From Pocillopora verrucosa (lineage: Eukaryota; Cnidaria; Anthozoa; Scleractinia; Pocilloporidae), in contig NC_089315.1 of assembly GCF_036669915.1 (NCBI RefSeq), forward strand, positions 23,007,936 to 23,071,935: a stretch of 64,000 bases of DNA. Direction: 5' to 3'. The position numbers and the translations under genes were made by a program. Under the pieces are notes generated by a model, which ran no database searches, had not been told where the DNA came from, and was given only the letters and a program-made list of their open reading frames with translations. Each line of letters starts with the position of its first letter. Positions within the stretch are counted from its first letter, which is position 1. Below are positions 8,532-61,727 of this stretch, one piece after another.

Positions 8532-8710
8532 TTACCAAGGACAGTATCCCCATTTTCTGTCGAGCTCAAACACTTTAGTCACCGAACACCATTTCTTGTC
8601 TGCATTTTGATTTGTACATCTCCAATAAACCGCACCATCGTAAATAAAAGGAAAATTACAGCAGGCTCCTTTGGCGTTTCCTCCGAATGTAATGGCACCA
8701 TTTTTGCAAT
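8532..8710 (-). CDS. Gene C exon 17: third FN2 domain and stop
   Basis: Encodes about 58 residues with the FN2 signature: CCNFPFIYDG, then RCT, WCSVT and WGYCPW. Its acceptor and phase match exon 16. The TAA at 8534-8532 overlaps a perfect donor (GTAAGT), so read-through splicing to a further exon is possible, but no further exon is visible downstream. Confidence 0.8.
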
Positions 8711-11700
8711 CTGGAGATAGAATTTAGCAGTTCAAAATCAAAGGTATCTACAGTGAAGAAAGAATCTTAATTTGCTTATTATGTTGACGCAGCTTAGTTT
8801 TCGCGCACAATTGCTTTGAGAACGTCCGATCACAGTGCGAAAAAGATCTGCCCATTTTTGCTATACAGCTGAAGACCACACAAATTTATCTCCTAAGGGA
8901 GTTTTACGCCTGACATTGCACAATGTTCATTTGCATTCAAATCATTTCGAAGAGAGTGATGAATAGAACCTTTACACTAATTAATTCTTAATTTATTCCA
9001 AAAAAGGGCTGTTCATCTAACCTAAGCTAAAACTTTGATTATTTTCGGCTTCCCTAACCAAAGACCTCTACTCGTAATTACCGCTGACGAAGTCTCTCAC
9101 GGCCATGAGAAAGCCAGAAGCCGGAAGTACGAATACAGTAATTTCTTCGCGTTCGTGGACATAGTTGATACCTTCACCTAGCTGAGTAATCATAGTTACT
9201 TCGCGAAGATTTTTTTTTTGGGGGGGGGGGGTTCTTTCAAAACACAAAATGTTGTTTACCCTGGGCGGTGTTTCTCCACTTTTGCTGATTGATGTTTCCA
9301 TTTTTCTGTCTTTTACAGCATTCGGTAGGACAGGCGTTTGTGCAAATCTTGTTACATACTTTTGGACAAAGTAACGTCGAACGGATCACAATCGGCGACG
9401 CTGAAGGTGTTTGGAAGCTCATAGAGGGGGATATACCCTCCCCTTGAATCCTTTGATAGAAACCAACACCCTTGTTGTTCACAGCAGAGTGAAGTAAAGA
9501 ACTAGTTCCCTTTTGCGCTGCCTTGCAGCATTGCTGTGGGCAGTTGCCATGACATGTAGGGTAGCAGTTAGTAGGGCATGGTAGTTTAAGAGTGTAAGAT
9601 AACGTGTTACGGCTTACGCCTTGCTGTGGGTTGTTACAACAGTCTGTTGGACAGTAACTAACACATGTGTTGAAGCAGATCGGAGGGCAGTTCGTAGGTC
9701 TTTGAGGAGGACTTGCCATGTAAGGCGAAGGCGGAAGGAAATTACAACAACGAACGGGGCAGTCTGGTGCGCATGTCTCGGTGCAGATGGCTGGACAAGA
9801 CTGCGAGGTCTGCTGAACCAGAGGGACCTGCTCGACCTGCTGATAAGGAAAAGTGAACACGCTGATAAAGTGTTTCAGCTCAATGTGTGTTACTGCATAT
9901 TTCTCCTAGGAATACGGCCGACCGTGAAGTTTGAGCAAATGATTCTGACTTTGAATTCAGGGAACTCCTGGAACTGGCGCAGATAATTTTGTTATGTTTT
10001 CCATGCGTGGAATGGTAAATACTAATCCTTAGTGCACCGTCTCCTTTAATAAACGAATTACCTGAGGGGGTGGGGGTGTTACTGGAGCTGGTTGTTCCTG
10101 CGTACTTATCATGCCCTTTACACAGCAGTAGTCGGGACACGTGTCCACGCATTTACCATCACAACCAGCAGAACATGGTGCGTAGGCAATTTTGGGCTGG
10201 GAAACTGAGCCGGGCGCGTCACCTGTCGATATTATAAATGATTCACATTAGAAGTGCAACACGAACATTTTAAATGACACTTTGTAGCGAATTGTCATTT
10301 TTGTTGTGCTTAGTTTCCATATTGAACAAATAAATAGTTCTACTTACGTAACATGTGACAATTTCGTACTCACCAGTTCTTAGATTTAGATTAAATTACA
10401 TAATTTCAAATGACATTTACCGTTCCAATACTATATTTGACACGCCTGCTATCCTTTCAATAGTTGCTCTAACGGGTATTGTTATCAAATTGACTATTGT
10501 AATAGTACTTGTAATTTGATTGTTAACGTAGTTTTAATGTAGCGTGTAAAACAATACAACAAAGTGATGATGGCACGATTCATGCCAAAACGAGCATAAT
10601 CGGGAGTTTCAAATTCATTTGGATTCAATTATTTTATTGCAAACACAGCTATCACCCAAAAAAATACTGAAGTAAGCTTCGGGCGAGCAAACAAAAACAA
10701 ACAAAAAAAAAATCATCGCTAACCTCCACAATAGCCCCACTGTTTATCCACATCATAGTTGTACGTGGTGGCACACCACGGCTTAGTTGAATCCTGGGTG
10801 GTACAGGTCGTGTACATTTTACCATCATACACGAAAGGAAAATGACAGCAGTTGCCATTTGAACTACCTCCGTAACAGAGAAAACATGCCGCACAAAATC
10901 CCCATTCTTTATCCTTGTCATAATTATTGGTTGTTGAGCACCAGCGGTAACCTCGCTCAGCCCTTGTACAGCGGTGCTGCGGGTTTCCTCGGTAGATGAA
11001 TGGGAAAACGCAACAGGCGCCTTTTGAAGTTCCTCCATGGGTGGACATACAACCTGTTTGTTTGGTCGCGAATTACAAATGACTTCAATGCTAAATTATA
11101 TGGAATATTTGATCCTTTCATTTTGTCGTGGTTGAAGAAATTGGATTTCAGCTGGGCTGAGATCTACCTTGGTATAAAGTTAAGCGTCCTGCCTACCTTG
11201 TATTATCACTGATGCTGAAACCTCTACGAAAGATGAAAATAGCGTTTTAGAAATTATCTTTCCTTGTACCAGTTTTAAAAGACCTTTGGTTCTCAGAGTC
11301 TTTCATATAGATATATCGGTATGTGTTCTGATAAAACGTCTGATATACTTAACGACTATTCACCGGAGTGGAGGTGGCACCGAAGGGAGTGATTGTTTTA
11401 ACATCAACCACAAGAACTAAAAAAATGTATTTAGTTTTTGGTCAGTATACCGAAAATGGTCGAAAACCGACTGCCATCTTGTCTCTTTGCCTGTTCACGT
11501 CCGAGTTGAATAGCAGTTGCTTATCACTTCAGCTTTTGCCAAATAGGGAGGCCGAAAAGCAGACTTCACTTGTCTGGTATATAATGAATGAAAATGTTAC
11601 TGCTTCGCTGTTAGCAAAAAGATTACTCACCGGGAACAGGAGAAAGGGAAGGTGCGGGGGGTAACGTTGGTAAGGTGACTGATGGGAATGGTTTGAAGCA

Positions 11701-14700
11701 TAGTGGTGACCCAGCGGAACATGGAGAAATGACAAATGTGCTATTGATTGGCTTGCATTGAGGAGAACCAGCAGGTGGAGGACTAGCGTTTGGTGTGCAG
11801 GGAGGTATTGTTTTAGGTGGAGTCTTAGTAGTAGGTGTTGTTACTATGGAGCATGGACGACTTGTGGTCGTTGATACACCCGGGTTGCAAGGTGTAGTTT
11901 TAGTAGTTGGAGGGGTTGGCGGAGAAGGAGTGGAGGGTGGCGGTGGTGCTTCTGTTGGCTTCGTTGATGGAGGTGTTAGTATTGGTGGAGGAGGAGGAGG
12001 TGGGTGAGTCGGCTTGGGAGGTGGCGGGAAATGCGGGGGGTGGAAATGAACGTGGATATGAGGTATGCGTGGAGGAGGTGGGGGTGGTGGAGGAGGTGGT
12101 GGGGGCAGCTTAGTTGTGGCAGGTCGCGGGGTTTGAGTTGTAGGTTTGACTGTCGTTGTTCGTGTTGTTGGTTTAGTCGTCGAAGGACCTGTAATAATGA
12201 AAAAAAGGAAACAGGAACTATTTTAGTCTGAAAAGCATGGAAAACTTGTTCGATGAAACGCAATATTTAAGTCTCCTACGACAAACAAAAATCATTCCAC
12301 TTTCCCATCACTTTTGTAACTTTGTTCATTTGCTATTTTTGGGACAAAATGATTCTTTAAGTAATCGATAAAGTGGGATAGGATGGAAAAACTCATTAAC
12401 ATGTAAAGCGCCTTGTATACCTCAATACATATCCTTAACAAAATAAATACAATAATATTTTTATTTTTAATGTAAATATATGAAAATCACACCTGTGAAC
12501 CGCGGCTTAAGAAACGAATTTCAAAACAATCTTCGTAGTAATGAACACTACTCAAGCAGTAGTGAAAGTAAGGCCTGAAATGTTTTTCGGACCTCATATT
12601 CACTACTGCTTAAGTAGTGTTCATTACTGCGAAGATCACCTTCCATTTCGTTGTGTTTGTATTATCTACGTACTATGTTTTGGCCTTGATGTGACTTTCA
12701 CTTCTATGTAGTGCCAGCAGTGCAGTCCAGGAATCGCATAAATTATTTTCTTCCCATCAAGAAGAATTTCGCGTTTCCCTTCTGGATCTTTGGCCCAGAA
12801 AGACACAATCTGTCCGGCTGCGATTTTGGGTTTGTCCAGGAACAACTGCTGAGTATCGGTCAATTCATCCATAACCTGAAGACAAATCACAGATATTAAT
12901 TATGCCCTCGGAATAAGATAATGAAGGCAATCTGATCCTGAAGGCGCCGGATCAGATTAGTAAAGATTTTTAGTTACATTATCAACGAAGTATCATAGCG
13001 TATGACCACTGGAACCATAGGCTAGGGGTTGCATCACTAGGTCACAGCGCTTAATAACGTCAGTGACCAACAAAACAGATCATTGACCAAATAATATGAA
13101 TAAACCTATCTATTAATATTAAATTCGCGCACGTCCTTCGAAAGTCACTTGTTCTATGAGAGTGGCCCATTTACACTTTCAACGCCTAATAGCACTTTCC
13201 ATTAGGCTAAATATATTTGTTCAGCACAACCAAGTAAGCTTTAATGATGTAGAATGAATAAAAGGGGTATGTTTGTAAAGAAACTGTGGTGCTGCGTCGG
13301 TGGTAGAGTATAGCAGGTAATTTACGTTTTACAACTAAGTTGAAAACGTAAATTGGCTACCGTAAAGAGTAAAAAAGCTGACGTTTCGAGCGTTAGCCAT
13401 TCGTCAGAGCGATTGGAGGAATTGTGGGTTGTATGTTTGTTTATATTCAGAAAGTGGAGCAACGCTATTGGTGGAAGTTTGATGACGAGAAAACAGGAAT
13501 AAATTAGTTGAATGAAAAGCGCTCGTTAATACCGTGGGGATTGAGAGTACCGATTTGGAATATAAATTTTTGTTCTAGTGTTTTCTAATGGGTCCATTAA
13601 GATCACTGATCACTTTACGAGTACCTCCGCCAATGTCATTTACTGCATAACTTGCACTTCTTGCAATAAGTTATACATTGGCGAAACAGGAAGACGACTA
13701 AGTGACCGATTCCGAGAACACCTTCGCAACGTGGAAAGAAATGATAAGGACGCACCCAAACCTGTCGCTAGACACTTTAATCTCCCTAATCATTCAAAAC
13801 AACATATGGCAGTTTGCGGTCTTTCCTTACATCTAGGCAGTTCGGAAAGCCGCAAACACTAGAACAAAATTTTTTCTTCCAAATCGGCACTCTGAATCCC
13901 CACGGTATCAACGATATCATTGTTATTTTTTTCGTCACCATATTCCCACCAATAGCGTAGCTCCATTTTCTGCATATAAACCCACACATAATCCACAATT
14001 CCTACAATCGCTCTGATAAAAGGCTAACACTCGAAACGTCAGCTTTTTTGCTCTTTACTGCGGCCAATTTACGTTATCAACTCAGTTGTCAACACGAAAT
14101 TACCCTTTCATAATATAGGCCCACCTCAGATAAAACTTCTCCATCTTGGTTTGGAACGTTAGTTCTTTTCACATGAAGAACCTTCAAATCGATTACTTTT
14201 TGATCGCGAATAACGTAGTGAAGGTGTAGCTTGGGTCCAGTGACTAAATACCCTTCTGGTTTGAGACTGGAGTAAAGGATGAAAGGCACCCCAGCTGTAT
14301 TCCAAAACGTGAAGTTCACGCAGGGTTCTGGAGGGTAGACGGGAAATTTATATCTTATTTATCAAATTCTTGCATGAGGCTTATATTCATGAGAAATGTA
14401 TCAACCGATATCAATATATCCGTTAAGGTTAGATTTTGCATTGAAATGACCAATCAAATCATTCCGTCAACGTTTCGAGTGTTTAACTGATTTTTTTTTC
14501 ACGTAAAGTAGTTGGGATCATTATATAAATGTTTTCTGAACCTCGAACAATATACAACAATTTCTCCAGGTTTGAAAAAATGGTAATAGATTTAGACTCC
14601 TACACGGTTGGAATTTGTTCATGAGTCGGTGGTACACTGCCTAACTCTCAATCAGCTCAAGTTATCCCGTTAGAGTGCGACTTTAAAAAAAATCATGCAA

Positions 14701-16459
14701 TGACCTCACTCTTCTTCTAAGCAGACTTATAGTAGTAATGTGTGTTTCCCTTATTTGAATGATACACATGAAATGTGTCAACGGGAGAGACTAGTAAGGG
14801 TAAACTTCTGATTATGCATGACGAGCTGGAGACGTAGCCAAACTTTAATTGTCCCTTATGTAATAATTTGCCAATTTTTTTATTGTTTTTGGTGGTTGCT
14901 CTGGTGACAGGCAATTTTTGAATAAGACCCAAATTTTAGCAATTATCTTTGTTCTACAATTAAAGACAATGATTATCATTACCGTAGTCCTTGTGTGGTG
15001 TGGTTGGAACAGTTGTAGGACGGGTGGTTCTAATTGTTGTTTTGTTTGTAAGTGGTGGTTTTGTGTCGGTAGAAGCAACACTAGGTGGTTTAGATGGTTC
15101 AATCGTATCGTAGCAGTTCATCAGAGGATTCTCGTTGGCTGCAAGAGGCCTTAGAGCGAACGAGCAACGCTTTAGCCATTCGGATGATGCCATGTTGTAG
15201 TCTGTAACCACCTCCGTGCGATGATAGTTTCGATTTATGCTTCTGCAAATGTACCATCCCTTTCGCATGAGGCTAAACTGGAATGCACCAGGAAGTGAAA
15301 ATACTTGAAAGAAGGCTGAACTTGCATCATAATCTGGTGTTTAAAAAGAATAATTGAAAACTTATACTTTTCCCCTATTTAAACCGAGGCAAGGTGGACA
15401 GCGTGTTAAATAATTAAACTCAAGGTGCTTCTCCCCACCCTGAAGTGACAGAGTCCCAAAGCATCGGCGCATCTCTAGGACTTTTGCGGATTCACTCTTG
15501 AAACCATAGCAACACTAAGCGATTACAGCGCAATCTTTGAAAAATTGACAAGCGGCGAAGTTTTCCTTCCTGGTTAAGACACAGGCAAGGAGTTCAAGCT
15601 TAAAACTTAAGCTACAGACTCCTTGAACAGGGGTTTGAAATGTCGTTTGCACACCATAGTGTCGTCTTTGTATACTTGCTGAAATGTGGCTGCAAACTGT
15701 TGTATTTCGCATGCATAGCATCGATACGCGTACTGGGCGATACTCAGTCTGTTGAAATTTGCTGCATAGCAGTCTTAATCGATAAAGGTTTATTAGTTAG
15801 TATTTCAAAATATTTAAAATCCCCGCCATATTAACTAATATATACGGTTGCTATGGACTTATAGACATATTCGTGACACGCGCAGACTTTTGTTAGCTTT
15901 TTTCCCAGCCGTATAAATGGATGTGTCAGGGAAACTTGATAAATAGCGCGAGGGCTACTTGCAGTGGACCAGCATCCTGACCACGAGGATTAGAAACATT
16001 AATAATCGCTTTTTCCTGACGCTAACGATATTGCGTTATTGGCTCGTGGAAAATGACCTACGCCCTACCTAAATATCTCTTGTCACCTTCAAATTATGAT
16101 GAATCATTGACATATGCAAAAATTGCAAACGCAGGTATTGCAGTGTGTTATGATTGAAACTTTGTTAGAATCATTGATATTGCTATATTTGCCCTATACC
16201 AAATTTTGTATCTCCTTGGTGCCCCAAAACGAATCTGTAGTTCTTCTGTCGAATGTAGTGACCAGGTAAACACATGGACTCAAAGGAGATGGTTTGGTGT
16301 TCTCCGGTCCCTTTGTCGAATCCTGGAATCTTGATGGCAAATGCCTACAGATTTTTTTAAAAAAATAGAAGTCCAGGTTCACAATTTTAAGTAAGTAGTC
16401 ACTGAAAACACGTTTCTCAAGTAAAATAGTCTGTAATAAGAGTGGCAATGAAAATAATA

Positions 16460-16496
<37 letters not shown>

Positions 16497-19400
16497 TGAT
16501 AATAATAATGATGATAAAGTTGCTTTCAGAGGGGCCTTTTAGATTTATCAAATAAATGTTTAATAATGAATAAGAGGGTCCCAATGGGGTTAACCGTTAG
16601 CCGTAAAACGGCCAAAATATTTAGCCGTTGGACGTAAAAATTGACAAATTTTAACCGTTAGTCGTAAAAAAAGTTAACCGTAAAAAATATCTCTGGTGGA
16701 AACAATGGAAAGGTGTTAACCGTTAGCCAGAAATTGGCCAAAATTTTAACCGATAGCCGTAAAAGCCATCACCCCACTGAGACCCTCGAATAAATAATGA
16801 ATAAGTAACAATTTGAGAAAATTAAAGAGGAAATAAAGATTAGGAATTAGAAAAACAAGCTTAAACACTCTTTTTTATAAACGTCACGTTAATCCTTGTC
16901 AATGTGAATATAATGGTGCGAAACCCGTCGGTGTCGATAATTACTGTATATAAGTAAATTTCATTTAACCCTACCTGACAGTTTTGAGTCAGCTCTAACT
17001 TTCCATTAGTGATTCGCCAGCAAAGATTGTAGATAGGATTCTGACTCGCGGGAACATCCAAAGAATGAATTACGTATAGCGCTCCGTTGACGACTATAAA
17101 AGCGGGAGAAGCACAATCCAAATGTTAAGAGGGCTTTACTATTTTGTTAAGGTCCACAAAGAAAAACCGTGACTACATTATTTGTGATATTAGAAATCAG
17201 AAAGATATTTGAGGTATTCAAAATTTAATTATCCTTAAGGGAAGGAATCGGGCTAGCACTAATCCATGTGCACTGCAAACGAAGCGTGCACAGAATCATA
17301 CTTTGATGAATGGCATTGGGTGAATTTTTATACTTACGAACTCTGGAAAGCCCTCGTGATTCCAGATACACCATTTTTCTTGCAATGATATGAGAATTTT
17401 CGCCAGGAGAGGGAATGTAATATGGTTTTTCTCGATTGTATACATAAGCGCCATGAAAAACTCCCGAGTGACCTGCTGCAGCAGCGTTTGTTGCCCCTTG
17501 CGTTCCCGCTGTTATGGTAGCACTGATTGATCCTCCGACCCCGCCTTCACCTGGTTGACTCGTCTGACCTGTTAGACCTGTTTGGTTTATTTGACTAGTT
17601 TGACTTCCCGCCACAGCACTTGCAGTTCCAATTCCAATTGACCCAGTGGTGCCTGTTGTCTGTCCAGATGAAGACACTGATCCTGGCGTCAACGGTATCA
17701 CGCTACCGTTTGCTGCATAAATATTAAATGTCTGAAAAAGTTGAAGTGATAAAGAAGTTCGTAAGAGGGAAGCGTAATGAAAGAAGCTACCAAAACGATA
17801 TGTGGTAGAGTGTTGCATATTCGCATTTGTAATGCACAAAGGTTTTTTATTTGGAATGAAGATCTTATGAACTTTCGTCGTAAGCGCGAGTCAAAGAAAA
17901 ACAATCAGAATCCACGTTGATGATTTAAGTATGTAACCTCAAGAAAATAAAAGTCTGTTGGATGCTCACCCACAGAGTCATAGACATCTCGTGGAACTTC
18001 GAACATTAACTTCGCTCAAATACCTTTAGGCTTCTTTATCTTAATTTTCAAAATGCAAAAACTGTTCCGGGCACCGTCGAATACCCACTGGTTTTTGAAA
18101 TGTACCCAGTTTGGAAAGGGCCTCCTTCAGTGTTTTCGTGGCTACTTCAGTTGCTGCTTTTCGTGCTGCCTCTGCTCCTGCTTGGGCTCCAGCCCTTGTG
18201 CCCGCTTCAGCACCGGCTAATGCACCCGCCTTTGCACCACTCTTCAGGGCTTCATTCACTCCAAGGGTGGCACCTGCTCTAGCTCCCGCTTTAGCTGCTA
18301 TCTTCACAAGATAGAAGGAGGAGGCACTGTCGTTGACTGAAAGTGCAGTTGTCAAATGTGATTAACAAATTAAGAAACGGTAGCTCTAAAAGGAGAACTT
18401 TTTTTATTTTTTGAAATTGATCCCTCAACACACCATGCGACTATGCTCAATTTAGCAATGAGTGTTCAAAATTTGCCCTTTAATCCAATTATAACAAATT
18501 TTGAACCCCAATAGTTTTTTTGGATTTCTTCGCTTCGGGCACTGGTTTTTTTAATTTAATCATTGCGAGTCTCTTAGATGGACGAGTTTATCCTTCTTTG
18601 AATTTCTATTCATGTCTGCCTATCCTTTTGTCTTTCAGAATGATTAATTATTTATGTTTGTCTTAATTCATCCTCTTGTCTATCTGCCTGTCTCTTTCAA
18701 AAGGGCTCTATCTACCGTTGATCATACCGTGCGGCTTGGGAGGCGGCAGCGTCCACAAATAATCTGAAGGAATCGGCGCAAGAAATTCAAAATCAGGTGT
18801 CATTACGGCTACTGCCAGGGAGTCGTTCCCGTATTGTTCTTTATGAAGGGCTTCGATGTAGTAATAGGAGCCATTTTTCATGTTTATTGGATATGATTGT
18901 TGTTCAGGATATCTGCAGAAATGATAAGGAAATAATATATTGGTAACAAGCACTATGTTGCAGTTTCCTGGATAATCCAACTTTCATATCCTTTGTCCCT
19001 TAAGATTCTGGCTTAACGGATGAGAGCTTTGTCGTCTTCCTCCAGCCCATTTTTCCTCTCTAAATGACTCTTTCCATAATACGTCGAGATGAACTGCAGG
19101 CATTTTGTAGTGCCAATGCAATTCGTAGTTATGAATTAAAATAAAGCTCTTACTTTCTGAATTGCATGGGAAGAGATTCGTGGTCTTTACCAACTCGAGC
19201 TATCAATATCTTTCCATCCGGGTTATCAGTTACACTGAGGAACAGTTGGCCTCCATTATCACTCGCTGAAATTGTTGCAAATTGTTAGAGTAAGGAAACT
19301 TTAATCTTCAGAGACAATCTGGATATGTAGTTAAACTCTTAAACTCCGGGTTATCAGTTACACTGAGGAACAGTTGGCCTCCATTATCACTCTCTGAAAT

Positions 19401-32363: not shown

Positions 32364-32364
32364 C

Positions 32365-41186: not shown

Positions 41187-41246
41187 TTCCGACGATTTTT
41201 AACGGTGGCGAAAAAAACCCAGGAGGGCAGAAACAAGGTCACTGTT

Positions 41247-47672: not shown

Positions 47673-47737
47673 ATAGAATAGTCATCTTTAAGTCCTTCTA
47701 TTCATTTTCACTACGCGGGAATAAGCATGTAATTTAT

Positions 47738-49608: not shown

Positions 49609-52600
49609 GTGTTTCTCCTATGTAACTGCAATTAGAGCAAAGCCTGTAAAACTATCTCCGGCATAGACTGCACGCGGTGTGATCACGTAATGGATTTTTT
49701 TTGGGAGGGGGGAGGGGGGGAAGGAGGGGCTGAATTGAACTGCTGAAAAGAAAAAGAATCTTAACTCGATGCCTCCTTCTTTTCTGTCAATGCAGAGACA
49801 ACATTTGTTCCGGGGACAATCACGTGAATCTTTTTTAATTGTGAAGTTGGAGTTGTTATCAATATTAGATGGGGGCAGAAGAAGACAAAATGGAAATTTT
49901 ATGATGTATAGAGCACCAGTAGGAAATATTAGGAAGACAGCCACTAAACTAACGCCACCCGCATAACGAACCATGTGACATTCGAAACTATGTGCTCTTC
50001 TTTTCTCACATTTCCACAATTTGAGGTTTTAAGCGCTTAATTATCCAACGCAGTTTCGAAAAGATCTTATTTTGTCATCATTGATTACTCTGCATGAACA
50101 ATTATTGACTGTAAAGCGAAAATGTCGAAATCCTTGCGATTGTATGGTGTACGATAAACGCTCGAAGTAACCTTGACAAAGACGACGTCAATAACTTAAT
50201 TTTAAAGGGCCAGGTACACTAAACATTGGATTTATGTGCCCTGGGGCTGGCAAGGTTTTTTTTTTTTTTAATTTTTAATTTTATACGAAAATCATTCTGG
50301 TTCACTCGCTAGTCACTACGACTCCATAATTTCCTTTCTGAAAGGGTATGACCTCGTTAAGGAGGCACCAGATACCAGCGGTCGCTTAAACACGTGACTC
50401 GCGATAAGACCATGTCTTTCTTCTCAGCCATTCAGCCCCCAAACACTATATATCATTGATCAGCATTCTGCAATCATTTAGTCATTGTTTCAATCTACGA
50501 GTAGCTATCAACACCAATCACAGCGATCAATTTTGCAACGTTTCTTATGATCGACAGTACATTTCTTTCTCTTTTTTCATTTTTTTGAAGGAAATGGATA
50601 CCAGACGTTTAGACAGAAACGATCATTTGGCGTCAAAGATGCGACTTGTAACTGTAAGTTACCCTCTGTGTGTAGTGCTTGTATATCATTAGTATGTGTT
50701 CTGAACAATAGATATGTCTCTTATAACTTACACCATTTTACCTCACCGTCTCTGTCTTCATTTCAGTGACCCATGGCGCTTATTTGGAGAGATATGACAG
50801 AATCGATTATAAACGTGTCAAATTTCTGTTGGCTGATCCTCGATACCCAAACCTACCGAGTTTTGCAACATGTGTTCCAACATTCGAACAGCCGTCAAAT
50901 TGGGCAGACTTCTTTGGGTCACGCATAAGAACATATTTCGTTCCGCTACAGACAGGAAACCACTATTTCTATCTTTGTACGATATTCCTTAAACTTTGTT
51001 CATCATAATGTTATACGCGATTCATGTAATTATTTTTACATCAGACTTTTCACTTTAATCCTCATTTCAACATGGCCAATTAATTCAATTGTGAGATGGA
51101 ATTCTTTCACGAGGTAGACAATAACCCATTACACTCTGCCTAGTAGAAGGAAACAATCGATTTTGGGAGGCACACTTTCAAGCCCCTTCCATGGCCCAAA
51201 ATTCTCGATTGCTCTCTCTCTTCAAATATGCTTCATTTGCAGTTCAATATGTGGGTGTTAAAATTTTGCTGTTTGATTTTTTTTTCAGCATCAGACGCCG
51301 GGAGTGAGCTCTACCTCAGCACGAATGAAAAACCAGAAACTAAGTCGTTGATAAATTACGTAAGTGGAGGATTTGCAACCTATCAGTATGAGTACGACAG
51401 GTGAGACCATGAGCACAAATGCAGTTTCAGAGTGTTATATTTATCTCTGTTGCAGTAACGCAAATCTCACAATAATGTAACATAGTTTCCTACAAGTTCA
51501 TCTCGTATTGATAGAGTCGGGTTTTGCCATGTGCATATACAGAACGCAATTGGTTTTGCTTCGATAATTAACAAAACTGTTGCATGGATATTGCCAAATT
51601 ATTTCCCCTCTCAATATATGATACGTTAACCGCGTGCATGTTAAGATAAAAATGTCGTCCTGATAACGGGTATCAAAACGGCGTTTGCGCTTTTAATTTT
51701 TATTAGCAGAAGTGTGATTAGTATAACTGAACAGAAAATTGAACCATCACTTCGAATGAAAGTTATTTGTCTCTCTTGTAAGAATTTGCATCTCTTCTGT
51801 GGTTGTGTCATTACACAAATGAAAATAACTTCAAAATAGAATTGCAGTTTTCTCCTATTAAAAGAGTCGCTTGCTAATTCGCAGTTCTCATCTGTGGAAT
51901 ACCTCTGGCTCTCAAAGTTAAGATTCATATTCCGTCATGGCCTCTTAATATTCCCTATTACTTTAATACAGGCACGTGGTATAACCTTGCTGGTCGTTTA
52001 TGTCAATTTTTTTTTTTGAACGCAGCATCCACTACATCCGCACTTCAGCGTAATGATGTTTTTCCTTTTTGCGCTCTTAGGTTTACAAATCAAAAATCTC
52101 TACCTGTTTACATGAAGAAAGGTAAATTTTACTACATGGAGGCAGTGATGAAAGATGACCACCAGAAAGATCACCTGGAGGCTGCTGTTAAGACACCAGA
52201 CGGACAATTTTACAAAGTTATACCCTCAAAATTCTTGTGGACAACTTTGCCACTACCGCCTGGTTGGTATATTTTCAAATAAATTTTGATAGCTGTATTT
52301 TATCAGTGGCTGGTAAGTGTACCAAAATCTAAAAAGAGCTACTTCGGCATTTTTCGTCACTTAAATGATTTTTGTAAAGAGCCATCACTAAACACTTTCA
52401 CCAACAATATTTGAAATAACAAGACCCTAGGCAAATATTCAAACAGTTCATCACTTTAGTTATTTCCTTATTTTCTACGTATGGTGTAATATAAAGAACA
52501 GGAGCGATTAAAGTATTATCACCCATCATTATTATTTATCAGAGAAAAACTCAACCTATCAAGTAACGTTGCTCAAAGTTGCTGCAAGAGCTGGTGCAAG

Positions 52601-55600
52601 AGCTGGTTTGGCATTTGGAGCTCATTGGGGAAAGAGGAGTGGGGCGAAAGCAGGAGCTAAAGCAGGTGCCTTGGCCGGAATAGAGGTAGGAGCATCCGCC
52701 GGAGCTCGTGTAGGAGAAAAAGCTGCCCTACAAGTGATCACAAAAACAATCGAGGATGGACTCAATAACGTCTATGGACAGAACTCGCACCGATTTAAAA
52801 TTGTTGTAGAGAATGGGAACGTGGTTTCCGTTACTAATCCAACTTCAGGAGGCACTCCTGGAAGTGGGGGATCAGGTGCTGCTGGAGGAACAGGGGGCGC
52901 AGCTGGCGTAGGAGGCAGAGGTGGCACAGGAGGCACAGGAGGAGCAGAGGGCGAGGGCGGTATAGGGTTCGGAGGTACAGGAGGCGCAATGGGGTCGCAA
53001 GCCGCAAAGGGCGAAGCGTATGGAGGGGGAGCAGCAGCATCGATGGCTGTAAAAGGAGGAAGTGGCTCGTCACTTACTGTAGGGGTGAACGGAGGTGGCC
53101 AAGGACAAGTCAGTGCTGGAAGAAGTGAGAGCGCATCAGGACAAGCAGGAAATGGAGCATCAGTTTCTGCTAAAGGTTCACAAGTGACTTCCGGTGAGGG
53201 AGTAGATACTTCTCCTGTTTCTAGTAGCAACAAAGCTAGCTCTCAACCAGATGAATTTTTGGGGTTCCAGGAGGCGTCATATATGTTAAAACCTGGAGAA
53301 GACGCACAAGCAATAGCAAGACTGCTTGTGTGGAAACAAGGGGCTGCAAGCAAACGTAAGTGGATGTCTTAGCTCAGAAAACTCGTAACATTAACACAGC
53401 TATTATTTGAAAATTGTTAATGAGGTGGTATCAACTCTCTGGAAGACCCTTTTTGATTTTCCTAATCCATCTGAAGTCTCAGCTTAAGAATGTTTTGAGC
53501 GAACGCGATCTCAGAACATAGATTCCCTATGATAATTTTTGTTTCCGTGTCAATTTCCTACCAGACCGGGTCCGGTGTAAAAGTGAGAACTAGACGTTTA
53601 GAGGGCTATATTTAACAATAGTAGATTGTACATGAAGTTTCACTAAATTAATTTTTGCATTTTACATGTTTCAGTTGTTCAAGATGGACTTTACACGGTC
53701 CACTCCTGGGATATACCATACCCACAAGAAAATGGCAGCCTTAACTTCTGTTGGCGTTCTTACAATGGAAAAATGGCTCTTAGACCATTCTGTCAAGTGT
53801 TCTCCGTGCGAATTCCTGCATTGCATCAAAAGGTTGAAGCGGGGAAAGAAACCGCTTCGTTTGAATCAGTTTGCCTTCCAGGTTATTTCTTGAGGCAAAA
53901 AAACTATAATTTTATTTTGCAAAAACGTGATGGATCAGAATTGTTTGGTGAGTAACATTGACGCCCACATTTCTTAAGATCTTTAAGTCAATTTTCCTTT
54001 TTGATAGTACAATCTTTTTTTGCCGCGATTTGAACTACTTCACCGAGCAGATTAATTGAACTATTCTCATCGTAGTTAAGTTTTTGTCTAACGTATTTTG
54101 CTGGTTAAAGTTTTATTTGTCTTTTTGTTGGTAAAGAAACGACCTTAGCCTCAACTGAGCACATCAGAGTGTAATTATGAACAATAACATAAACGTGATT
54201 GTTAAAGTGCGTATAACTTATTCTTCCTCAACAGATAAAGAGAGTTCTTTCTACTTAGTTAGAGTGATGAAGTTTAGTCGGAATCTCCTGCTGAAATCAA
54301 TGCACAAGGATTGGTATATTTGCCAAAGTAGAGATCGGCAACGTGATCACATCACACCTTTGGAGCTGGACTTTTATAATGGTGATCCCGACGTCCTCGA
54401 GAGGTGTACATTTTCATTTTGGCCAGTTCCACCATACGAAAACAAGCAAAAGAACTGTCGGAACGTTATTGGACCGGAGAAACCATTAACCATCGTAGGA
54501 CAACCACAACCCCATCCTGCTCATTTGGTTTCAGAGACCAGCGCCCAACCACTCCAACCCTCCTGCATCCCCTTGTGTTCGTCTGGAGGGTTAACACCGG
54601 CGGCACCGGCAATGTTTCAAGGATCAACCATAAATGGTCCTTCGGAGCCTTCTGTCGCAAGTGGAAAAAGTAAATACATGTTTAGTCTGTCATTGCTCTT
54701 TCATGGTACATGTTAATGCATGATTCTTTCTGAATTTGCAGACACCATTTTAATCCTGGTCAAATTTCAGACTCAAGGTATAGGAATTAGTCAGACTTAA
54801 CAAACACAGACCATTGAGTCAATTAGTTTGAAACGATCACGAACTAAACAATTATTATGTCAACAAATGTCTTCGAGTATTCTCCATCACAATCCATAAA
54901 TTATTATTCATTGAAATGCCTTCCAATGATTAACATGTAAAGCTTTCCAATCAATTTAACACTTACTGTTTCCCATTTCGATCCCTCTTTTTTCAGGGAT
55001 GTGCGTTGCATTAAACTTCATAAACAACTTTGGACCTTCATTTAAGCTCCTGTCCTCTCTTAAACATGAAGCGTACCTTGTCACTGGATCAGGATTTAAG
55101 CTTAAACTCATTATAGAACGACCTGAGCTACATAGCCATGTTGCATTCAGCGCTGAGGATCCGACTGGAAAAAGCAAGTTACTTTTGAATGAAGAAACAA
55201 GCATATCAGAATCACCTGTCCCTGGTTGTCCTGTGTTTAAGGATATTTCAGTCACCAGGCAAGGTACGACGCATTAATTATCCTGAGGCATGTATTAAGC
55301 GGTATACCCCTTTCGATTTATCATTCGTCCAGGAAAACATAACAATGTGATGTGTATACAAAATTAAACACTTTTCCTGTGTCAATAGAGCAGGATAATC
55401 AACTTGCATTAAAATTTATTTAGTTTGGTTACCTTTTGAGCCTCACTTTATCAGAAACCATTAGAGAATTCAAGCATTCTGGCTTGCTGGTATGTCGAAA
55501 GAAATTCCCCGCGGTTGAAAATTCATTGCAGCCATATTTCAGTTTCCCTTTAAGTCTCTCTTCCTAGCCAATCAGCTATAGATTTTCGTGGACAATCTTT

Positions 55601-58380
55601 CAGCCTTAAGCATGATCCTCCTCAATCAGTTAATGCCGAACTCAAAGTCAGAAAGTACTGTGCAAAGGTAATGCAAACAATTATCGTCGAATATTGGGTT
55701 TTGTTCTCCCCATATATCAGCGATCTATGTTGCATTTTATAGACACCTCAAAACGATAAATCGACGAGATATCAGAGCTTTCCTGTGGTATCTCGTTCCA
55801 AAGATAAATCGTTGCGGTGATATATCGTTCCGGCGATATATCGACGAGACATCTGAGTTTTCCTGCGATATCTCGTTTCAAAGATATATTGTTCCAGCGA
55901 TTGAATAGTTTAAGCGATATATAGTTGCGGCGATATATTTCTAGCATACATTTATCGTAGAGCGCACAGTACATCATCACGATAATATTATTTGCTCCAG
56001 TGAAATATCGCTCCAGCGATTCATCATGTTAAAAGCAGCAGAATATATTTTTTCGAGACAGACGGAGATGAAGTTTTACAACATTAGGAAACGAGGCAGG
56101 CCTCAAGGGCAATATTTAGATCGAAAATTTCGATTAACTGCGATAGCTTGCGAACAAGTAATTTTATTAAGGCATTGATAACAGCCTCTAATGGTTAAAT
56201 ACGAGCACATGACAAAAAATTTAGGATAGCTAAGCGGTCTAATTTAGGCGCTTTTTTTTCATTTATTCTCAAAAGCTGGCATTTTCCTGTGCTTACTTTA
56301 CATGTGTCCCACATGTGGTTTGTTTCTCCTATAATTAGCACTGATAGGAAAAGACCTCGCAAAAAGTCTTCCTTGTAGATATTCGCGTCTCAAAGCTATT
56401 AACATATCAACGGGATTCGGTTCGTACTCAAACTAGTCGATTCGTACCTGTCCCAATTTTAATGCATTAGAAATATCTCACGCACTCGCGCGTTGTTTCG
56501 ATTGTTTCCTAGGATATTTCGTAAGTTAGTAGAGTCAAGCAAGGTGGTAAGTTTGTAGAGTCAAGCGAGTAAAAAATTCCAATTGGGTGCTGATCATTAT
56601 GTTGGTTCCAAAAAAACTCTCCAAGTGGTAAATAAATGACTATAAATATACGAACATCATACATATGTGATTCGAGTTCGCTGCGTTTGCTATACGTTCG
56701 TTGTTTTAAACATTGTATCCACTACATCAGTAAACCCAGTCAGTCGCTACTAACGTTTAACTTCACTAAATACCTATCTAAATTACAATGACGATACGGC
56801 AAAAAAGTCAGTTCAATACTGTATAGAAGATAAGTAAGGGCAAATTTAAAACTTCTTCATGATGGAAAACCGATAAATTATTACTATTTTTCTGAACTAC
56901 AGGTAGTGATTCACGAGAAAGGCTTGGGAAATATGAGCCTTTCTCCTTGGGCACTCGCGTCTCGACATCAACTTCTCAACCTCATCCTCCACCACCTTTG
57001 TCACTTCTGCGCCCTCCCTCTCCTTCTCCTCCACCTCCACCTCCTCCTCCTCCTTCTTCTCCTCTTCCTCCTTTCCCTCCTCCTCCTCCACCTGCACCTG
57101 CACCTCCTCCTCCTCCTCTTCCTCCTTCACCGTCCCCTCTTCCACCGCCATCATCACTATCACCAGCCTCTTCTGCATCAGTCGTTTCAGCAGTCCCTGC
57201 AGCCTCGGAAATTCCAGGTAAGCCACTTATTAACTTTGTGCAAGCTAACACAATTATTTCATCGCTTTTTTTTTATCTAAAAAGCAAGGTTTTGATGTGG
57301 CTTACATGGTCATCATTTTCTCGAAAAGGATTTGAATATCTGCACTATGAAATGATATCAGCAAATAGAGTGCTTTTTACAAACTAAGATAAACGACAAT
57401 GACGCACCAAAAAAAGGATGAACAATTCGCGTAACAGCAAGTTATAAAACAATAGGAGCAGTAAGGCAAAAACAACTTTTGAGATCAAACTGTAAATAGC
57501 ATTGAAGTTAGCCATGTCCACAGACATATTTTGTAGACAAAAAAGAGAGTTAGGTTATTTCATTTGATAAACACAAACCGACCATTATCATTTGTCATCC
57601 AAGTGACACTTCCTATGTTTCAAAAACGTCAGAGACTAATGCCTTTCAACCATACCCAAGTAAACCTTTTTATGATATCATCCATTAATCTCTCGCTAGA
57701 ACGTTATAACCCTTTAAAGTATATGCGACTTCAGGGGAGTTTGAAAGTTAAAATTATTTTTTTGAAGAAAAAGGGCCTGGATCCATTCATTATCATTACC
57801 ATTACACGAGGACACCCTTCCGTACTCTCGGTAGGTGAAATATTTTCCAAAATACAAATGATCTAAATGATTCATTATAAAGATTAATATAAAAAATACT
57901 GATGTCAATAAAAGATAGATTAAACAGAAGACGTTTAGCGTTTGCGAATGATTTCTTTAATTGGACAAAGAAATAGAAAATAGATTTTTAGTTCATCTTC
58001 TCTTTTCTATCAAAATGCAACATTTGTCCTGCACTTGAAACTGATGGTTTTACAACATTGAATAAAAAAAATTCTTGGCCCTAGTGCGCATTTATGAGTT
58101 TCAACATTTATCAAATCAAATTAACTCAGATCTAACGAGAAAAATAAGTGTAAAAAACTATCGGTATATTTGTCTCCGTAGCGGTTGAATTAAATTGGGA
58201 TCATAAGATTTTTCACAAATTCATAGTTCATCTTGCAAAACAGAAAATTCGGACTGTTGTTTGTTTAGTCGTTTTAATGTAAATATATTTAAACACTTAA
58301 CACCTTTTTTAATAGGTTGTCCAACGAGCTGTTCCTCCACTGGGTGCCCGGTTTCCTGTCCGCCATCCTGTTGTCGGTAA
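49527..58380 (+). CDS. Gene D: secreted PA14 / silk-like / AbfB-like / Cys-module protein
   Basis: Inferred 12-exon gene, 959 residues: tentative exon 1 49527-49608, then 50591-50653, 50767-50976, 51289-51400, 52081-52262, 52543-53355, 53675-53947, 54235-54669, 54997-55263, 56903-57217, 57768-57830, 58316-58380. Exons 2-12 have GT-AG borders and phases identical to A and B. Order: propeptide with RQKR, PA14-like, GARAGA/Gly-rich silk-like exon, AbfB-like trefoil, Pro-rich linker with SCIPLC, conserved family domain, poly-Pro exon, His-rich mini-exon, and a final Cys module CPTSCSSTGCPVSCPPSCCR followed by TAA. It is oriented away from gene A across the repeat island. Exon 1 (MNINLFVILFSCLTRF...) fits by phase and hydrophobicity, but its donor GTGTTT is weak. 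Confidence 0.8.
50591..50653 (+). CDS. Gene D exon 2: propeptide with RQKR
   Basis: GNGYQTFRQKRSFGVKDATC then N, matching gene A exon 2; 63 nt, phase 1 both sides. Confidence 0.85.
50767..50976 (+). CDS. Gene D exon 3: PA14-like domain, first part
   Basis: GAYLERYDRIDYKRVKFLLA, NWADFFGSRIRTYFVPLQTG, HYFYL. 210 nt. Confidence 0.9.
51289..51400 (+). CDS. Gene D exon 4: PA14-like domain, second part
   Basis: SDAGSELYLSTNEKPETKSL, then GGFATYQYEYDR. 112 nt. Confidence 0.85.
52081..52262 (+). CDS. Gene D exon 5: PA14-like domain, third part
   Basis: NQKSLPVYMKKGKFYYMEAV, DHLEAAVKTPDGQFYKVIPS. 182 nt. Confidence 0.9.
52543..53355 (+). CDS. Gene D exon 6: silk-like GARAGA and Gly-rich exon
   Basis: 271 residues: AARAGARAGLAFGAHWG and SGAKAGAKAGALAGIEVGAS repeats, RFKIVVENGNVVSVTNP, a Gly/Ala/Ser tract (GGTGGT, GSGAAGG), then YMLKPGEDAQAIARLLVW. 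Confidence 0.9.
53675..53947 (+). CDS. Gene D exon 7: AbfB-like trefoil lobes
   Basis: DGLYTVHSWDIPYPQENGSL, FCQVFSVRIPAL, ASFESVCLPGYFLRQKNYNF, LQKRDGSELFG. 273 nt. Confidence 0.9.
54235..54669 (+). CDS. Gene D exon 8: trefoil end and Pro-rich linker
   Basis: DKESSFYLVRVMKFSRNLLL, SMHKDWYICQS, LDFYNGDPDVLERCTFSFWP, then a Pro/Gln-rich tail with SCIPLC. Confidence 0.9.
54997..55263 (+). CDS. Gene D exon 9: conserved family domain
   Basis: MCVALNFINNFGPSFKLLSS, LKHEAYLVTGSGFKLKLIIE, RPELHSHVAFSAEDP, VPGCPVF. 267 nt. Confidence 0.85.
55745..55965. repeat. Imperfect tandem repeat in gene D intron
   Basis: About 80-100-bp units rich in GATATATCG and ACGAGATATC/ACGAGACATC repeat twice with drift. 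Confidence 0.6.
56903..57217 (+). CDS. Gene D exon 10: poly-Pro exon
   Basis: Begins GSDSRERLGKYEPFSLG, then about 60 residues of Pro/Ser with PPPPPPP runs, ending VPAASEIP. Phase 1 both ends. Overlapping frames (Leu/His-rich +, Glu/Gly-rich -) are shadows. Confidence 0.8.
57768..57830 (+). CDS. Gene D exon 11: His-rich mini-exon
   Basis: EKGPGSIHYHYHYTRTPFRT then L, between TTGAAG and GTAGGT with phase 1 at both ends. It matches the HYHYHFH mini-exons of A and B and is missed by simple ORF calling. Confidence 0.75.
58316..58380 (+). CDS. Gene D exon 12: C-terminal Cys module
   Basis: CPTSCSSTGCPVSCPPSCCR then TAA. Spacing C-x3-C-x4-C-x3-C-x3-CC; no acidic tail, unlike A and B. Too short for ordinary ORF detection. 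Confidence 0.85.
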
Positions 58381-60623
58381 AATCCTTGTTACGCCGGAGT
58401 GCAGATTGAACGAGGACATAAAATCGTCCTTTTCAATGTGGTTATAAACTGGACGGAAGAAAATCAGTCAAAGGACCTTGCTCTTGCGTCGTTGAAGCCG
58501 CAGTTATTGTGGCTGTGCTGCTTGTCACTTTCCAGATGTAGGAAGCAGGCAGTAGATTCGTAAAATCATGATATGAACAATTTTAACCGGTTTACATGTT
58601 CTGAAAAATCACCAAACAATACTTGCGGGGCATTGCTATTCTCGCTCTCAGCGAGAATCCGTTGACGAAATTCGCTAGTTTACATCAACCTAGCACACGC
58701 GTTGTATAAAACACGTAAACCTAAAACGTTCACGGATTTATATGAAACATGCGTTTTTTTATTAACATTTCTACTTGAGATATAGGATGTTCTTTCCTTA
58801 GGTTAAGGTATTGAAAGCTCAGCATTTTCCATAACATTTGTTGTTCCTGAAAAATATCTTTAACCAAGAGTTACTTTAAGCTAAAAACAAACTTCAATTA
58901 ATAGATTAATAGATAGATGAAGAAACAAATATATTTACAAAGAAGAATACAAATTAAAACTGAAAAATTACAACGTGAGTTGATGGATCCTTATCTGAAC
59001 ATAACAGCATCGGCTTCAAACTAAAACTTGCGTATTATGGTCTAGGTGGCGTTTAAAACTTTTTCAACCACAATTGGCAGTAATGTCGCGATCTGATTGG
59101 CCAATTTGTCGTTGTCAATAAGAGTCGAGATTATGCTGCTGCGCCTCTTGAATCCACAACATTTTAACCACTGTCATGACGAATGTCGTTGTCGATAGGA
59201 GTACAGACCACGCTAAGCCACTTTCGATTTGTTAAATCGACAATTTTTATAATTGAATTGATGATTCCTTTTTTGTTTTTGCAGCGAGTTTCAAGAACGC
59301 TTCACATTAATATTTATCATAAAAACCAAAATGAGTGATATGCATGGTGTCATTTTACTTACTCTGTTCTTGTTTTCCCGTGCAACAAAGAGGATCAATT
59401 AGTGGAGAATCTCTCTCGTCAAATGATGCTGTAGTTCCTAGTGTTATAAGAATCGTAGAAAGGGTCCATACTCGCCTTATATGTGTGTCTTGTTTTGACT
59501 GCATGCGCATGAAAGTTAAAACTTTAAACTCTCTAAAGCTAAACGAATTTTAATGGTGGTGCTGTAGATATAAACACCCTAAGCAAGAATCAATTTACCA
59601 ATTTCAGTTTCTAATAAATACGAAGATACACCCTTACGTATATTTGGGTACTCTTCTCTAACGAAAAAGGTCATTTGTTGTTCTTGACTTAACGAGAGAA
59701 TCCAGGGTGCGACATTCATGTGAATGTCGGTGAATCGATTTTATTAGATAAAATATGTACTTAGGTGAAATCGTTTCTACTAATTGATAACACCACAGGA
59801 CATAATATGTCAGGACGATGAGTCTTTCAGTCAGATTACCCGTTTCGAGCCTTCATTGTTCGCTTTTCACAGCAGGTGGCTTTTCAAATGCAACCATGCA
59901 ATATCTTTGAATGACGAAAATGCCTTAGTTCCAGCGATTTCATTTTGGGCCCCATTCACTTACAATGAATTCCCTGATAGTCGTGTACTTTATGTTATTT
60001 TGCTTCTTCATTGGTCCATTCTCCAAAGTAATCACTACAGTAATGGAAACATCAGGTGGGTTATTCAAGTATTGTAGTAATTAAAGTGAAATTGTGTCAC
60101 TTTTTTGAGAGGGTCAAGTGTAATCTCATACAAAGATTTTCAGATGATTATGGGTCTTTTCAAGCGCAAAGCGTAATAGTTTTCAATATCAGATTTTTCA
60201 GGTCAATTGAATTGCAATTCTAGGGGAGGGAAACTAGTTGAAGTCGAACGTGTTTCAACCTTTTCCCGCCGACACAGGCTGATCATTTCTTTTCTCTGCT
60301 ATATTTTATGTTCGTAAAATTCAATTTCGTTTTAACGAACGTAGAGAAGAATGAAAATAGAAATGCACCTTTCGGTCCTAATTTGAACCAAAATGCGGAT
60401 AAGAGAGAGCAGGCATGATGAATTGGTGAGATCTCTCGAATTTCACTTTTTTTTTTTTTTGTTTGATTCCCTGCACCTGATGTCTTATATGTCTGTTGAG
60501 ATTCACTGACATTTAAATTTACTCAACTCTTTCTCGCTCTAAGTTCTAATCTTCTTTAACAGTGTATTCCTTTCATGAATTATGAAAAAGATATAAACCT
60601 CTTTGTATAACGAAAGTGACAAA
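58381..60623. other. Intergenic region between genes D and E
   Basis: No conserved exon recognised. An ORF near 59331-59550 starts with a hydrophobic stretch (MSDMHGVILLTLFLFSRATK in one frame) behind AATATTTATCATAAAAA, which weakly resembles the A/B core promoter. It could hold a gene E first exon, but no donor of the right phase is present. Confidence 0.35.
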
Positions 60624-61727
60624 ATGATAAAAATTTTCATTCTTCATTTATTGACATCAATAGATAACTATGAGCCCGTCAGGCTGCGACGAGGCTTCGG
60701 CTTTAGAAAAGCAGTTTGTGGATGTAAGTAAATGGCTCTTCATTTTGATTGTACTTGAAGTAATATTTACCTAAGGACTTTCGAAAACCATGGCGATCGT
60801 CAGTTCAGTTCCCAGTCATGATATCGTACTTCTCACTTATTTGTGTATGTTGTTTTCTAGTGAAAAATGGCGTATACCTGGAGAAATGGGACCGAATTGA
60901 TTTTAAACGCGTTAAGTTTCTGTTGGCTGATGAACGATTTCCAAACATGCCAAGTTTTTCAACATGTGTTCCAACGTTTGAACAGCCCTCAAACTGGGGA
61001 GACTTCTTTGGCTCACGTTTAAGGACGTATTTTGTTCCTCTTCAAACTGGAAACCACTACTTCTTTCTTTGTAAGGAATAATGTAGTAATTGATACCTAT
61101 AACTGAATTTGATAGCATCCCAGAAAAGATGACCGAGAAGATTCAGGACTCGACAGGATTCGAACCCGCGCCTCCCAGACACTGCTTCGGCTACTGGCTG
61201 GGCCACGACGTCACATTTTGGAGGGAAGCCATTTCTTTAAATGAAGTACACATGCGAAGATCATATCATCACATGCCTATCATTTAAGTATGAGCAGATT
61301 CCTGCACGGGATTAAATTCGAAGAGCCCACTTTAATTTGCCTCGCCCCAACATTTGTCCTCGTGGCTCAGCTATTAGATGCCCCAAATAGTTTCTGGTGT
61401 CACGATTTACCTCATCTTTTATTTGTTCGCAACAATCAAGTGGTTTTTAACACGCTTCTGAATTGTCTTTTTTTTTTTTTCATATTTTCGTTTTGTTTAG
61501 CCCATTTATTTCTTTATCTAGAGTCTTCAATTGGGAAAGAAGAGCAAAACATACTATACACTGTATTATTTTCATTTGATTGCCACATCTGATTGCTATC
61601 CATTACTTACTCTAGCTTCCAATGCTGGGAGCGAACTGTTTATGAGCACAAACGATAACCCAAAGACCAAGACAATGATTACTTACGTAGATGGAGGATT
61701 TCCCACTGGCCAGTATGAGTATGACAG
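60624..61727 (+). CDS. Gene E: fifth paralogue, 5' part only
   Basis: Three exons are recognisable. 60664-60723 encodes NYEPVRLRRGFGFRKAVCG (propeptide with RLRR); 60861-61070 encodes PA14 part one (GVYLEKWDRIDFKRVKFLLA, NWGDFFGSRLRTYFVPLQTG); 61616-61727 encodes PA14 part two (NAGSELFMSTNDNPKTKTMI, GGFPTGQYEYDR). Sizes are 60, 210 and 112 nt, in the family pattern. The frame of the first is open back to an ATG at 60624 (MIKIFILHLLTSIDNYEP), so exon 2 may be the first coding exon. Alternatively a separate signal exon lies upstream. The last donor is GC (GACAG|GCACGA), a poor site. PA14 part three and all later exons are not found before the window ends, so the gene is either cut by the window or truncated. 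Confidence 0.65.
60861..61070 (+). CDS. Gene E exon: PA14-like domain, first part
   Basis: 210 nt, phase 1 both sides; GVYLEKWDRIDFKRVKFLLA and TYFVPLQTGNHYFFL. No stops or frameshifts. Confidence 0.85.
61141..61215 (-). repeat. tRNA-like SINE fragment
   Basis: On the minus strand GCGGGTTCGAATCCTGTCG provides a good B box with its T arm. The 5' half is only loosely tRNA-like. Lies in the gene E intron. Confidence 0.4.
61616..61727 (+). CDS. Gene E exon: PA14-like domain, second part
   Basis: 112 nt, same length as in all paralogues, acceptor CTCTAG. The donor position reads GGCACGA in place of a GT site. Confidence 0.75.

Follow-up and report, generated by a model that had tools for sequence, protein, structure and literature searches.

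Five neighbouring coral genes encoding modular secreted proteins, candidate cross-linked matrix components of cnidae

What kind of protein is encoded by five related genes that lie side by side in a 64 kb stretch of DNA (the window) from the stony coral Pocillopora verrucosa? The original prediction, made from the sequence alone, had described five paralogues that join a signal peptide, a dibasic propeptide, a PA14-like domain, GAKAGA silk-like repeats, an AbfB-like trefoil, Pro- and His-rich segments and a minicollagen-type cysteine (Cys) module in one chain, and had suggested a secreted, cross-linked, elastic protein family. Having compared the genes with their relatives, we favour, with moderate confidence and on the strength of sequence, the view that they encode large, secreted, disulfide-cross-linked matrix proteins of the cnida (cnidocyst), belonging to a family that is, as far as we searched, hexacoral. 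In most of the five, two carbohydrate-type domains are combined with a glycine-striped segment and the disulfide-forming Cys module known from stinging capsules, so that a role as building material of coral stinging or sticky cells is probable.

An all-against-all comparison of six-frame open reading frames, followed by spliced models, bore out the five predicted paralogues. The homologous loci, G1 to G5, extend from position 8532, the final base of the G1 stop codon, to 61727, the end of G5 exon 4. They form two divergent groups, with G1, G2 and G3 on the minus strand and G4 and G5 on the plus strand; each feature described below lies on the strand of its gene. The models, spliced by hand, give open reading over 18, 12, 12, 11 and 4 exons: G1 (8532-21978, 1388 amino acids), G2 (24259-32281, 980 amino acids), G3 (33159-41186, 1034 amino acids), G4 (50591-58380) and G5 exons 1-4 (59965-61727). 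All acceptors are AG and all donors GT except one GC in G2; a GC also closes G5 exon 4, and the annotated P. verrucosa protein P0002 reads across it as a join. Phase 1 accounts for 44 of 52 modelled introns, with the phase of the first modelled G4 exon assumed.

The exon joins, translated and searched, agree with protein models of Pocillopora, Stylophora, Acropora, Montipora, Oculina and Nematostella. All 157 residues encoded by G5 exons 1-4 are identical in P0002. Starting at exon 3, G1 and P. meandrina P0008 share 1300 of 1333 aligned residues (97%), the alignment containing a 9-residue exon that P0008 skips and two 1-residue gaps. P0008 is partial and does not include G1 exons 1 and 2 (signal peptide, 21894-21978; propeptide, 20828-20896), which are similar to the N-terminus of Oculina P0009; P0009 also has residues similar to the skipped 27-base exon (11197-11223), which we tentatively treat as optional. 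The partner of G3 is Stylophora P0001. Of the predicted architecture, the PA14 and AbfB domains, the Pro/His segments, the Cys module and the propeptide are borne out by sequence as parts of the family. A search for the G4 signal exon did not find it (the single candidate, at 49527, was weak and had a poor donor, and we rejected it), and the window edge cuts G5, which within the window comprises only the signal, the propeptide and part of PA14; its remainder was read from P0002 alone.

Protein searches scored the best candidates by shared five-letter words (8000 for G2, 7999 for G1). With G2 as query, at least seven proteins from Stylophora, P. verrucosa, Acropora and Montipora matched at E <= 1e-3, all annotated as uncharacterized, and region 500-800 of P0001 recovered the same seven among 1965 candidates. 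G1 matched at least 21 proteins. Six of these (P0008-P0013) align across the whole architecture, and the remaining 15 matches listed (P0014-P0028) come from microbes or metagenomes; a PA14 domain is precomputed for 14 of these. The metagenome protein P0014 (precomputed PA14, PKD and DUF1800) aligns with 19% of the G1 query at 41% identity (E 9.7e-94), which is close for an animal and a likely microbial protein. With relatives in corals and in Nematostella, the proteins can be assigned to cnidarians, as predicted. The 17 sequences that we compared are all from stony corals except for those of one anemone; a taxonomy check placed Pocillopora and Oculina in Hexacorallia, to which the remaining genera also belong. 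The sequences fall into a G1 type and a G2 type.

Both of the globular domains named in the original prediction were recovered when isolated segments were scanned with Pfam. PA14 (PF07691, cut-off 24.0 bits) matched all five domains scanned. The four complete domains in the window exceed the cut-off: G1 with 35.4 bits (18728-20578; exons 20360-20578, 19154-19265 and 18728-18912; 1.1e-08), G2 barely, with 24.3 bits (29974-31118; exons 30909-31118, 30328-30439 and 29974-30155), G3 with 25.2 bits (37955-39856; exons 39647-39856, 38636-38747 and 37955-38136; 1.6e-05) and G4 with 27.9 bits (50767-52262; exons 50767-50976, 51289-51400 and 52081-52262; 2.3e-06). The fifth, taken from P0002, scored 19.2 bits, below the cut-off; the corresponding part of G5 occupies exons 60861-61070 and 61616-61727 (GC donor), and the rest lies beyond the window. 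PA14 is 159 residues long in all 16 complete sequences. AbfB (PF05270, cut-off 22.8 bits) scored 27.9 bits in G1 (14983-17093; exons 16975-17093, 16200-16344 and 14983-15333, the last with a Thr/Pro tail; 2.8e-06), 40.9 in G2 (26561-28406; exons 28134-28406, with the GC donor, and 26561-27031; 2.8e-10), 42.0 in G3 (35129-36336; exons 36064-36336 and 35129-35578; 1.2e-10) and 41.1 in G4 (53675-54669; exons 53675-53947 and 54235-54669; 2.5e-10). Whole-protein scans of P0001, P0002, P0008, P0009, P0011, P0012 and P0013 at E <= 0.01 did not report PA14 in P0001 and P0002 and placed it just under the cut-off in P0011; AbfB was just under the cut-off in P0012 and P0013 and unreported in P0011.

Two further domains had gone unmentioned. 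G1 contains three FN2 domains above the Pfam cut-off, two at 10724-11053 (5.3e-36, two stretches) and one, followed by the stop codon, at 8532-8710 (2.7e-15); P0008, P0009, P0011 and P0012 likewise have three, and P0013 has two. A conserved domain that we call dom9 has two invariant Cys residues and measures 88 residues in the G2 type, 114-133 in the coral G1 type and 241, with an insert, in P0013. By alignment it lies at 12674-14327 in G1 (exons 14125-14327 and 12674-12875), 25909-26178 in G2, 34552-34821 in G3 and 54997-55263 in G4. It matched nothing in Pfam (best E 0.07) or, up to E 5, in the PDB. The order in G1 is signal, propeptide, PA14, A-G-A-x (AGA) domain, short linker, AbfB, dom9, Pro/His segment, two FN2 domains, five canonical Cys modules and a final FN2.

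The GAKAGA segment proved to be something other than the silk-like repeat that had been proposed. Judged by length and register, the conserved segment is a fixed-length (A-G-A-x)n domain with glycine at every fourth residue, located at 18089-18336 in G1 and, together with the Gly-rich stretch that follows, at 28821-29729 in G2, 36820-37740 in G3 and 52543-53355 in G4. We rejected the silk reading because 154 of 155 core glycines in 16 sequences fall in one modulo-four register, that register holds G in 88% and A in 12% of cases, and all 16 sequences, from Nematostella to corals, keep a length of 84-85 residues (85 in 15, 84 in one). Ala makes up about 70% of two other registers, while K, R, E or S predominate in the last. 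A Fourier test was weaker than the register count: power at period 2, a harmonic, was about equal to that at period 4, and period-4 power lay just below the 99.9% level of shuffles, themselves scored by best period, in five of 16 sequences (G1, P0004, P0008, P0009 and P0012). Glycine-zipper Pfam models gave only weak matches (best E 0.33-0.69, in one or two of nine members each), the top weak Pfam match was a domain of unknown function (E 0.0017, four of nine members), and the best PDB match (E 0.25) was unrelated. These sequence features argue for a folded element packed through small residues, contrary to a drifting silk repeat; a beta-sheet with Ala faces is possible.

The silk-like part of the chain would instead be the length-variable Gly-rich stretch between the AGA domain and AbfB. 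In the nine sequences of G2 type it spans 183-224 residues, of which 26-39% are Gly; it is reduced in seven G1-type sequences to 100-132 residues with 12-19% Gly (in G1 itself, a linker at 17338-17731 with 18% Gly). The proposed elasticity is correspondingly weakened: a long Gly-rich stretch is present in the G2 type only, and neither the cnidoin motif GxGQQ nor GAGAGS occurs in G1-G5.

Pattern matching in all six frames of the window found eight Cys modules, all within G1-G4, and none in 100 residue shuffles. The minicollagen-type module predicted for all five genes is canonical (CX3CX3CX3CX3CC) only in G1, where the first lies at 10062-10222 and modules 2-5 at 9260-9839. G2 (24259-24383, with an acidic tail), G3 (33159-33286) and G4 (58316-58380) have one variant module each, as do P0001, P0003-P0006 and P0007. 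P0008, P0009, P0010 and P0011 have five canonical modules each, like G1, and P0012 has two. Nematostella P0013 (LOC5503106, 1997 amino acids) has 18 canonical and nine variant modules after its two FN2 domains, and 187 Cys residues. The modules are confined to the C-terminal part of the chains. In a study of Hydra modules, the canonical pattern is linked to capsule cross-linking, Val/Ile at position 4 plus Pro at position 14 are enough for the C-type, multivalent fold, and that fold is called prevalent in medusozoans (PMC4863159). The two-residue rule holds for three of five modules in G1, P0008, P0010 and P0011, two of five in P0009, neither of two in P0012 and five of 18 in P0013; with the near-copy P0008 excluded, this makes 16 of 40 canonical modules in G1 and P0009-P0013.

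A [KR][KR] pair precedes PA14 by no more than 35 residues in all 17 sequences, in agreement with the dibasic propeptide of the original prediction; this is a raw count, in which P0005 has the pair only at -32 and one protein is represented twice, by G5 and by P0002. The predicted cleavage sites are IKR in G2 (propeptide 31416-31478), QKR in G3 (40207-40272) and QKR in G4 (50591-50653), before AFG, TFG and SFG, respectively, and LRR in G5 (60664-60723); G1 has KK only. Signal exons lie at 32182-32281 in G2, 41087-41186 in G3 and 59965-60055 in G5. A Lys-Arg-terminated propeptide has been linked to diverse nematocyst proteins (PMC4321713). The Pro- and His-rich segments were found as described: Pro-rich and His/Tyr exons at 24826-24987 and 24576-24641 in G2 (together 24576-24987), 33970-34293 and 33533-33601 in G3, and 56903-57217 and 57768-57830 in G4, with His/Tyr strings such as HYHYHYH in the family, and in G1 a Pro/Thr-rich exon with HIHVHFH (11631-12188). 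The G3 Pro-rich exon includes a 30-bp unit repeated 4.2 times with 95% match (34086-34212), probably a recent expansion. Acidic C-terminal tails end G2, G3, P0001 and P0002 and are missing from G4, P0003, P0005 and P0006.

How do these proteins relate to known capsule components? With minicollagens they share a propeptide, Pro-rich stretches and, in G1 and its G1-type relatives only, the canonical Cys module; G2-G4 have the variant and P0002 has none. We found no minicollagen collagen helix: the longest strict G-x-y runs in G1-G4 are 2, 3, 9 and 2 triplets, without Pro, and the best Pro-bearing longest run is six triplets in P0002 with 8% Pro. NOWA is likewise a large secreted chain with an array of minicollagen-type Cys modules, and it also has a C-type lectin domain; no such domain was present at E <= 0.01 in the seven whole-protein scans. 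Cnidoin of Hydra shares the signal peptide, a propeptide ending in Lys-Arg (as in G2-G4; G5 has RR and G1 KK), a Gly-rich middle and a minicollagen-type Cys module; it differs in that Cys modules flank it at either end and its repeats read QMQGCGQQXP, and no PA14, AbfB or FN2 is described in the section on it in PMC4321713. The GXGQQ repeat is absent from 16 of the 17 family sequences and occurs once in P0013. By the features tested, the family is neither minicollagen, cnidoin nor NOWA; its sequences are best read as those of a Cys-module matrix protein that would work like cnidoin or NOWA.

The signal peptides, dibasic propeptides and canonical Cys modules are the make-up of capsule proteins and support the earlier idea of a secreted, cross-linked protein. 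We envisage that the signal peptide directs the chain into the secretory path, where the short propeptide would keep it soluble until it is cut at the dibasic site before PA14, and that the chain reaches the capsule vesicle while this is growing. Its Cys modules might there reshuffle their disulfides and lock the chain into the minicollagen network, as suggested by the behaviour of the module in tests on Hydra proteins. Possible ligands are collagen for the FN2 domains of G1 and capsule or tubule glycans for PA14 and the AbfB trefoil. Chains are probably joined through the AGA domain, packed as a bundle of helices with small residues. The G2-G5 proteins appear to have gained or enlarged a Gly-rich spring as well as Pro-rich and His/Tyr segments.

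Several observations weigh against this cnida matrix role. Ordinary matrix proteins, too, can contain FN2, PA14 and CBM-like domains. The second loop of the Cys modules in G2-G4 exceeds the canonical length, and there is no Cys module in P0002, to which G5 corresponds as its annotated full-length match, or in the G5 fragment itself; cross-linking by the known route is therefore less sure for the coral duplicates. Sugar binding by the PA14 and AbfB domains is doubtful. The S-D-D loop of PA14, the site of calcium binding in Flo/Epa lectins, has its Asp-Asp pair in only one of 17 sequences (P0012). The two AbfB structures that match best have a His after Lys/Arg, and all 11 family sequences aligned have Gln there. 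P0004, P0005 and P0010 have an Asp-Asp pair a few residues downstream of the loop position, and an acidic residue lies near the DATF position of the trefoil; the His and acidic/DATF positions are likely sugar contacts in AbfB (CBM42). PA14 shows weak PDB profile matches to PA14 and Epa/Flo adhesins (best E 0.009), and the AbfB profile retrieves PDB chains of CBM42 type, among them the anti-sigma factor RsgI5 (E 2.4e-11, the best) and AbfB 1wd3 (E 2e-06); that alignment covers only part of the domain, the family has six invariant Cys residues, and no hydrolase domain was found in it. Finally, the accessible parts of the nematocyst literature consulted do not mention a PA14/AbfB/FN2/Cys-module architecture.

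The same sequences can be read in other ways. Secretion by gland or epidermal cells as an adhesive or mucus matrix, in which the Cys modules cross-link outside the cell and play no part in cnidae, would suit the modular architecture with PA14, AbfB-like and FN2 domains, and the His/Tyr strings resemble metal- or oxidation-cross-linked glues. An anemone matrisome paper also reports gland-cell matrix genes (PMC12549020). We nevertheless consider this reading unlikely, since the canonical module is a capsule-protein feature in the portions of the literature consulted. A narrower version of the cnida reading, suggested by the range of the 17 sequences (stony corals and one anemone), is that these are hexacoral-only matrix proteins from which spirocysts, the ensnaring capsules, would make their sticky thread or network of fibres, with glycan-type PA14/trefoil heads on a glycine-zipper oligomer tied to the minicollagen wall by the Cys array, which in Nematostella has 27 modules, some fitting the C-CRD rule of the multivalent linker type. 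Spirocytes are restricted to hexacorallians according to the discussion, and to anthozoans according to the introduction, of one preprint (PMC13345560). We give the spirocyst version a low probability.

Given their occurrence in stony corals in several G2-type paralogues, and the acidic C-terminal tails of G2, G3, P0001 and P0002, the proteins might instead organise mineral in the skeletal organic matrix, the tails binding calcium. We regard this as very improbable: the longest member belongs to Nematostella, an anemone without a skeleton, which speaks against a purely skeletal role; G4, P0003, P0005 and P0006 lack the tail; and six of the loci are unnamed in the open-access literature searched. 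Least likely of all, in our estimate, is a venom, lectin or immune effector that would use PA14 and AbfB to bind sugars of prey or microbes, its genes having multiplied under arms-race selection. Both domains are carbohydrate-type by family name and the genes are duplicated, but strong purifying selection in the domains, the constant length of PA14 and the altered positions of likely sugar contact argue otherwise.

The place of the Nematostella member in the family tree and the constraint on the domains count in favour of the cnida matrix reading. The tree was built from 444 columns (PA14, AGA, AbfB and part of dom9) and drawn with a midpoint root. It separates the G1 type, with Nematostella on its side, from the G2 type (100/100), unites the acroporid G2-type genes in one clade (100/100) and G3 with Stylophora (100/100), and gives no firm order among G4, P0002 (G5), G2+G3 and the acroporids. 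The Nematostella branch is long (0.76), and long branches meet at the midpoint root. If the root lay on Nematostella, both types would stem from the coral line and the multi-module form with FN2 would be the older. We infer that G1 is the conserved form, which Nematostella also has, and that G2-G5 are coral duplicates without FN2, with one variant Cys module or none and with more Gly-rich sequence. The domains are under purifying selection, as judged from sequence comparisons of four domains among G2-G4: the ratio of nonsynonymous to synonymous rates (dN/dS) was 0.048-0.184 in the five of 12 comparisons in which it could be computed, dS being saturated in the other seven, and the proportion of nonsynonymous differences was below that of synonymous differences in all 12. 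In Acropora millepora, the neighbouring locus numbers LOC114961605 and LOC114961608, on contigs equal in size, hint that the cluster is conserved.

We found no description of the family in the open-access literature, supplementary tables excepted, and no open-access paper containing both "PA14" and "nematocyst" (as whole words, the plural "nematocysts" uncounted); one paper that brings the PA14 domain together with Cnidaria deals with thrombospondins. The family had been predicted to be undescribed, which holds in this sense; the genes themselves are already annotated, as uncharacterized proteins. The anemone protein may be listed in the supplementary tables of the Nematostella matrisome paper, which gives 298 genes as detectable in cnidocytes (PMC12549020). 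If expression in cnidocytes holds true, minicollagens, NOWA and cnidoin would be joined in the cnida parts list by another modular class, the single Nematostella gene LOC5503106 would offer a route to what sets hexacoral cnidae apart, and the proteins would represent a natural cross-linked material with a module carrying glycine at every fourth residue.

Other elements lie in and around the cluster. Adjoining it, an ISXO2/IS1595-like DDE transposase fragment occupies 2889-3359 on the minus strand (Pfam DDE_Tnp_IS1595, 4.6e-15). Between the divergent gene groups, 44837-47681 looks like mobile-element remains, with a HECT-domain fragment (45645-45953, plus strand, 1.5e-06), an integrase core, rva_4 (46957-47283, minus strand, 1.8e-19), and a Clr5 match below the cut-off (47379-47681, minus strand). 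Similar stretches in introns of G1 (20140-20310) and G2 (27100-27640) are tRNA-like and probably tRNA-derived short interspersed nuclear elements; ARAGORN, run with the bacterial code, called no tRNA in the window. A 128-bp tandem duplication at 19217-19469 includes the first part of G1 PA14 exon 4, and its extra copy seems intronic, apparently without a donor site. Tandem repeats comprise a 53-bp satellite of 8.9 copies at 5626-6096 and a 20-bp A-rich minisatellite of 23.9 copies at 47872-48350.

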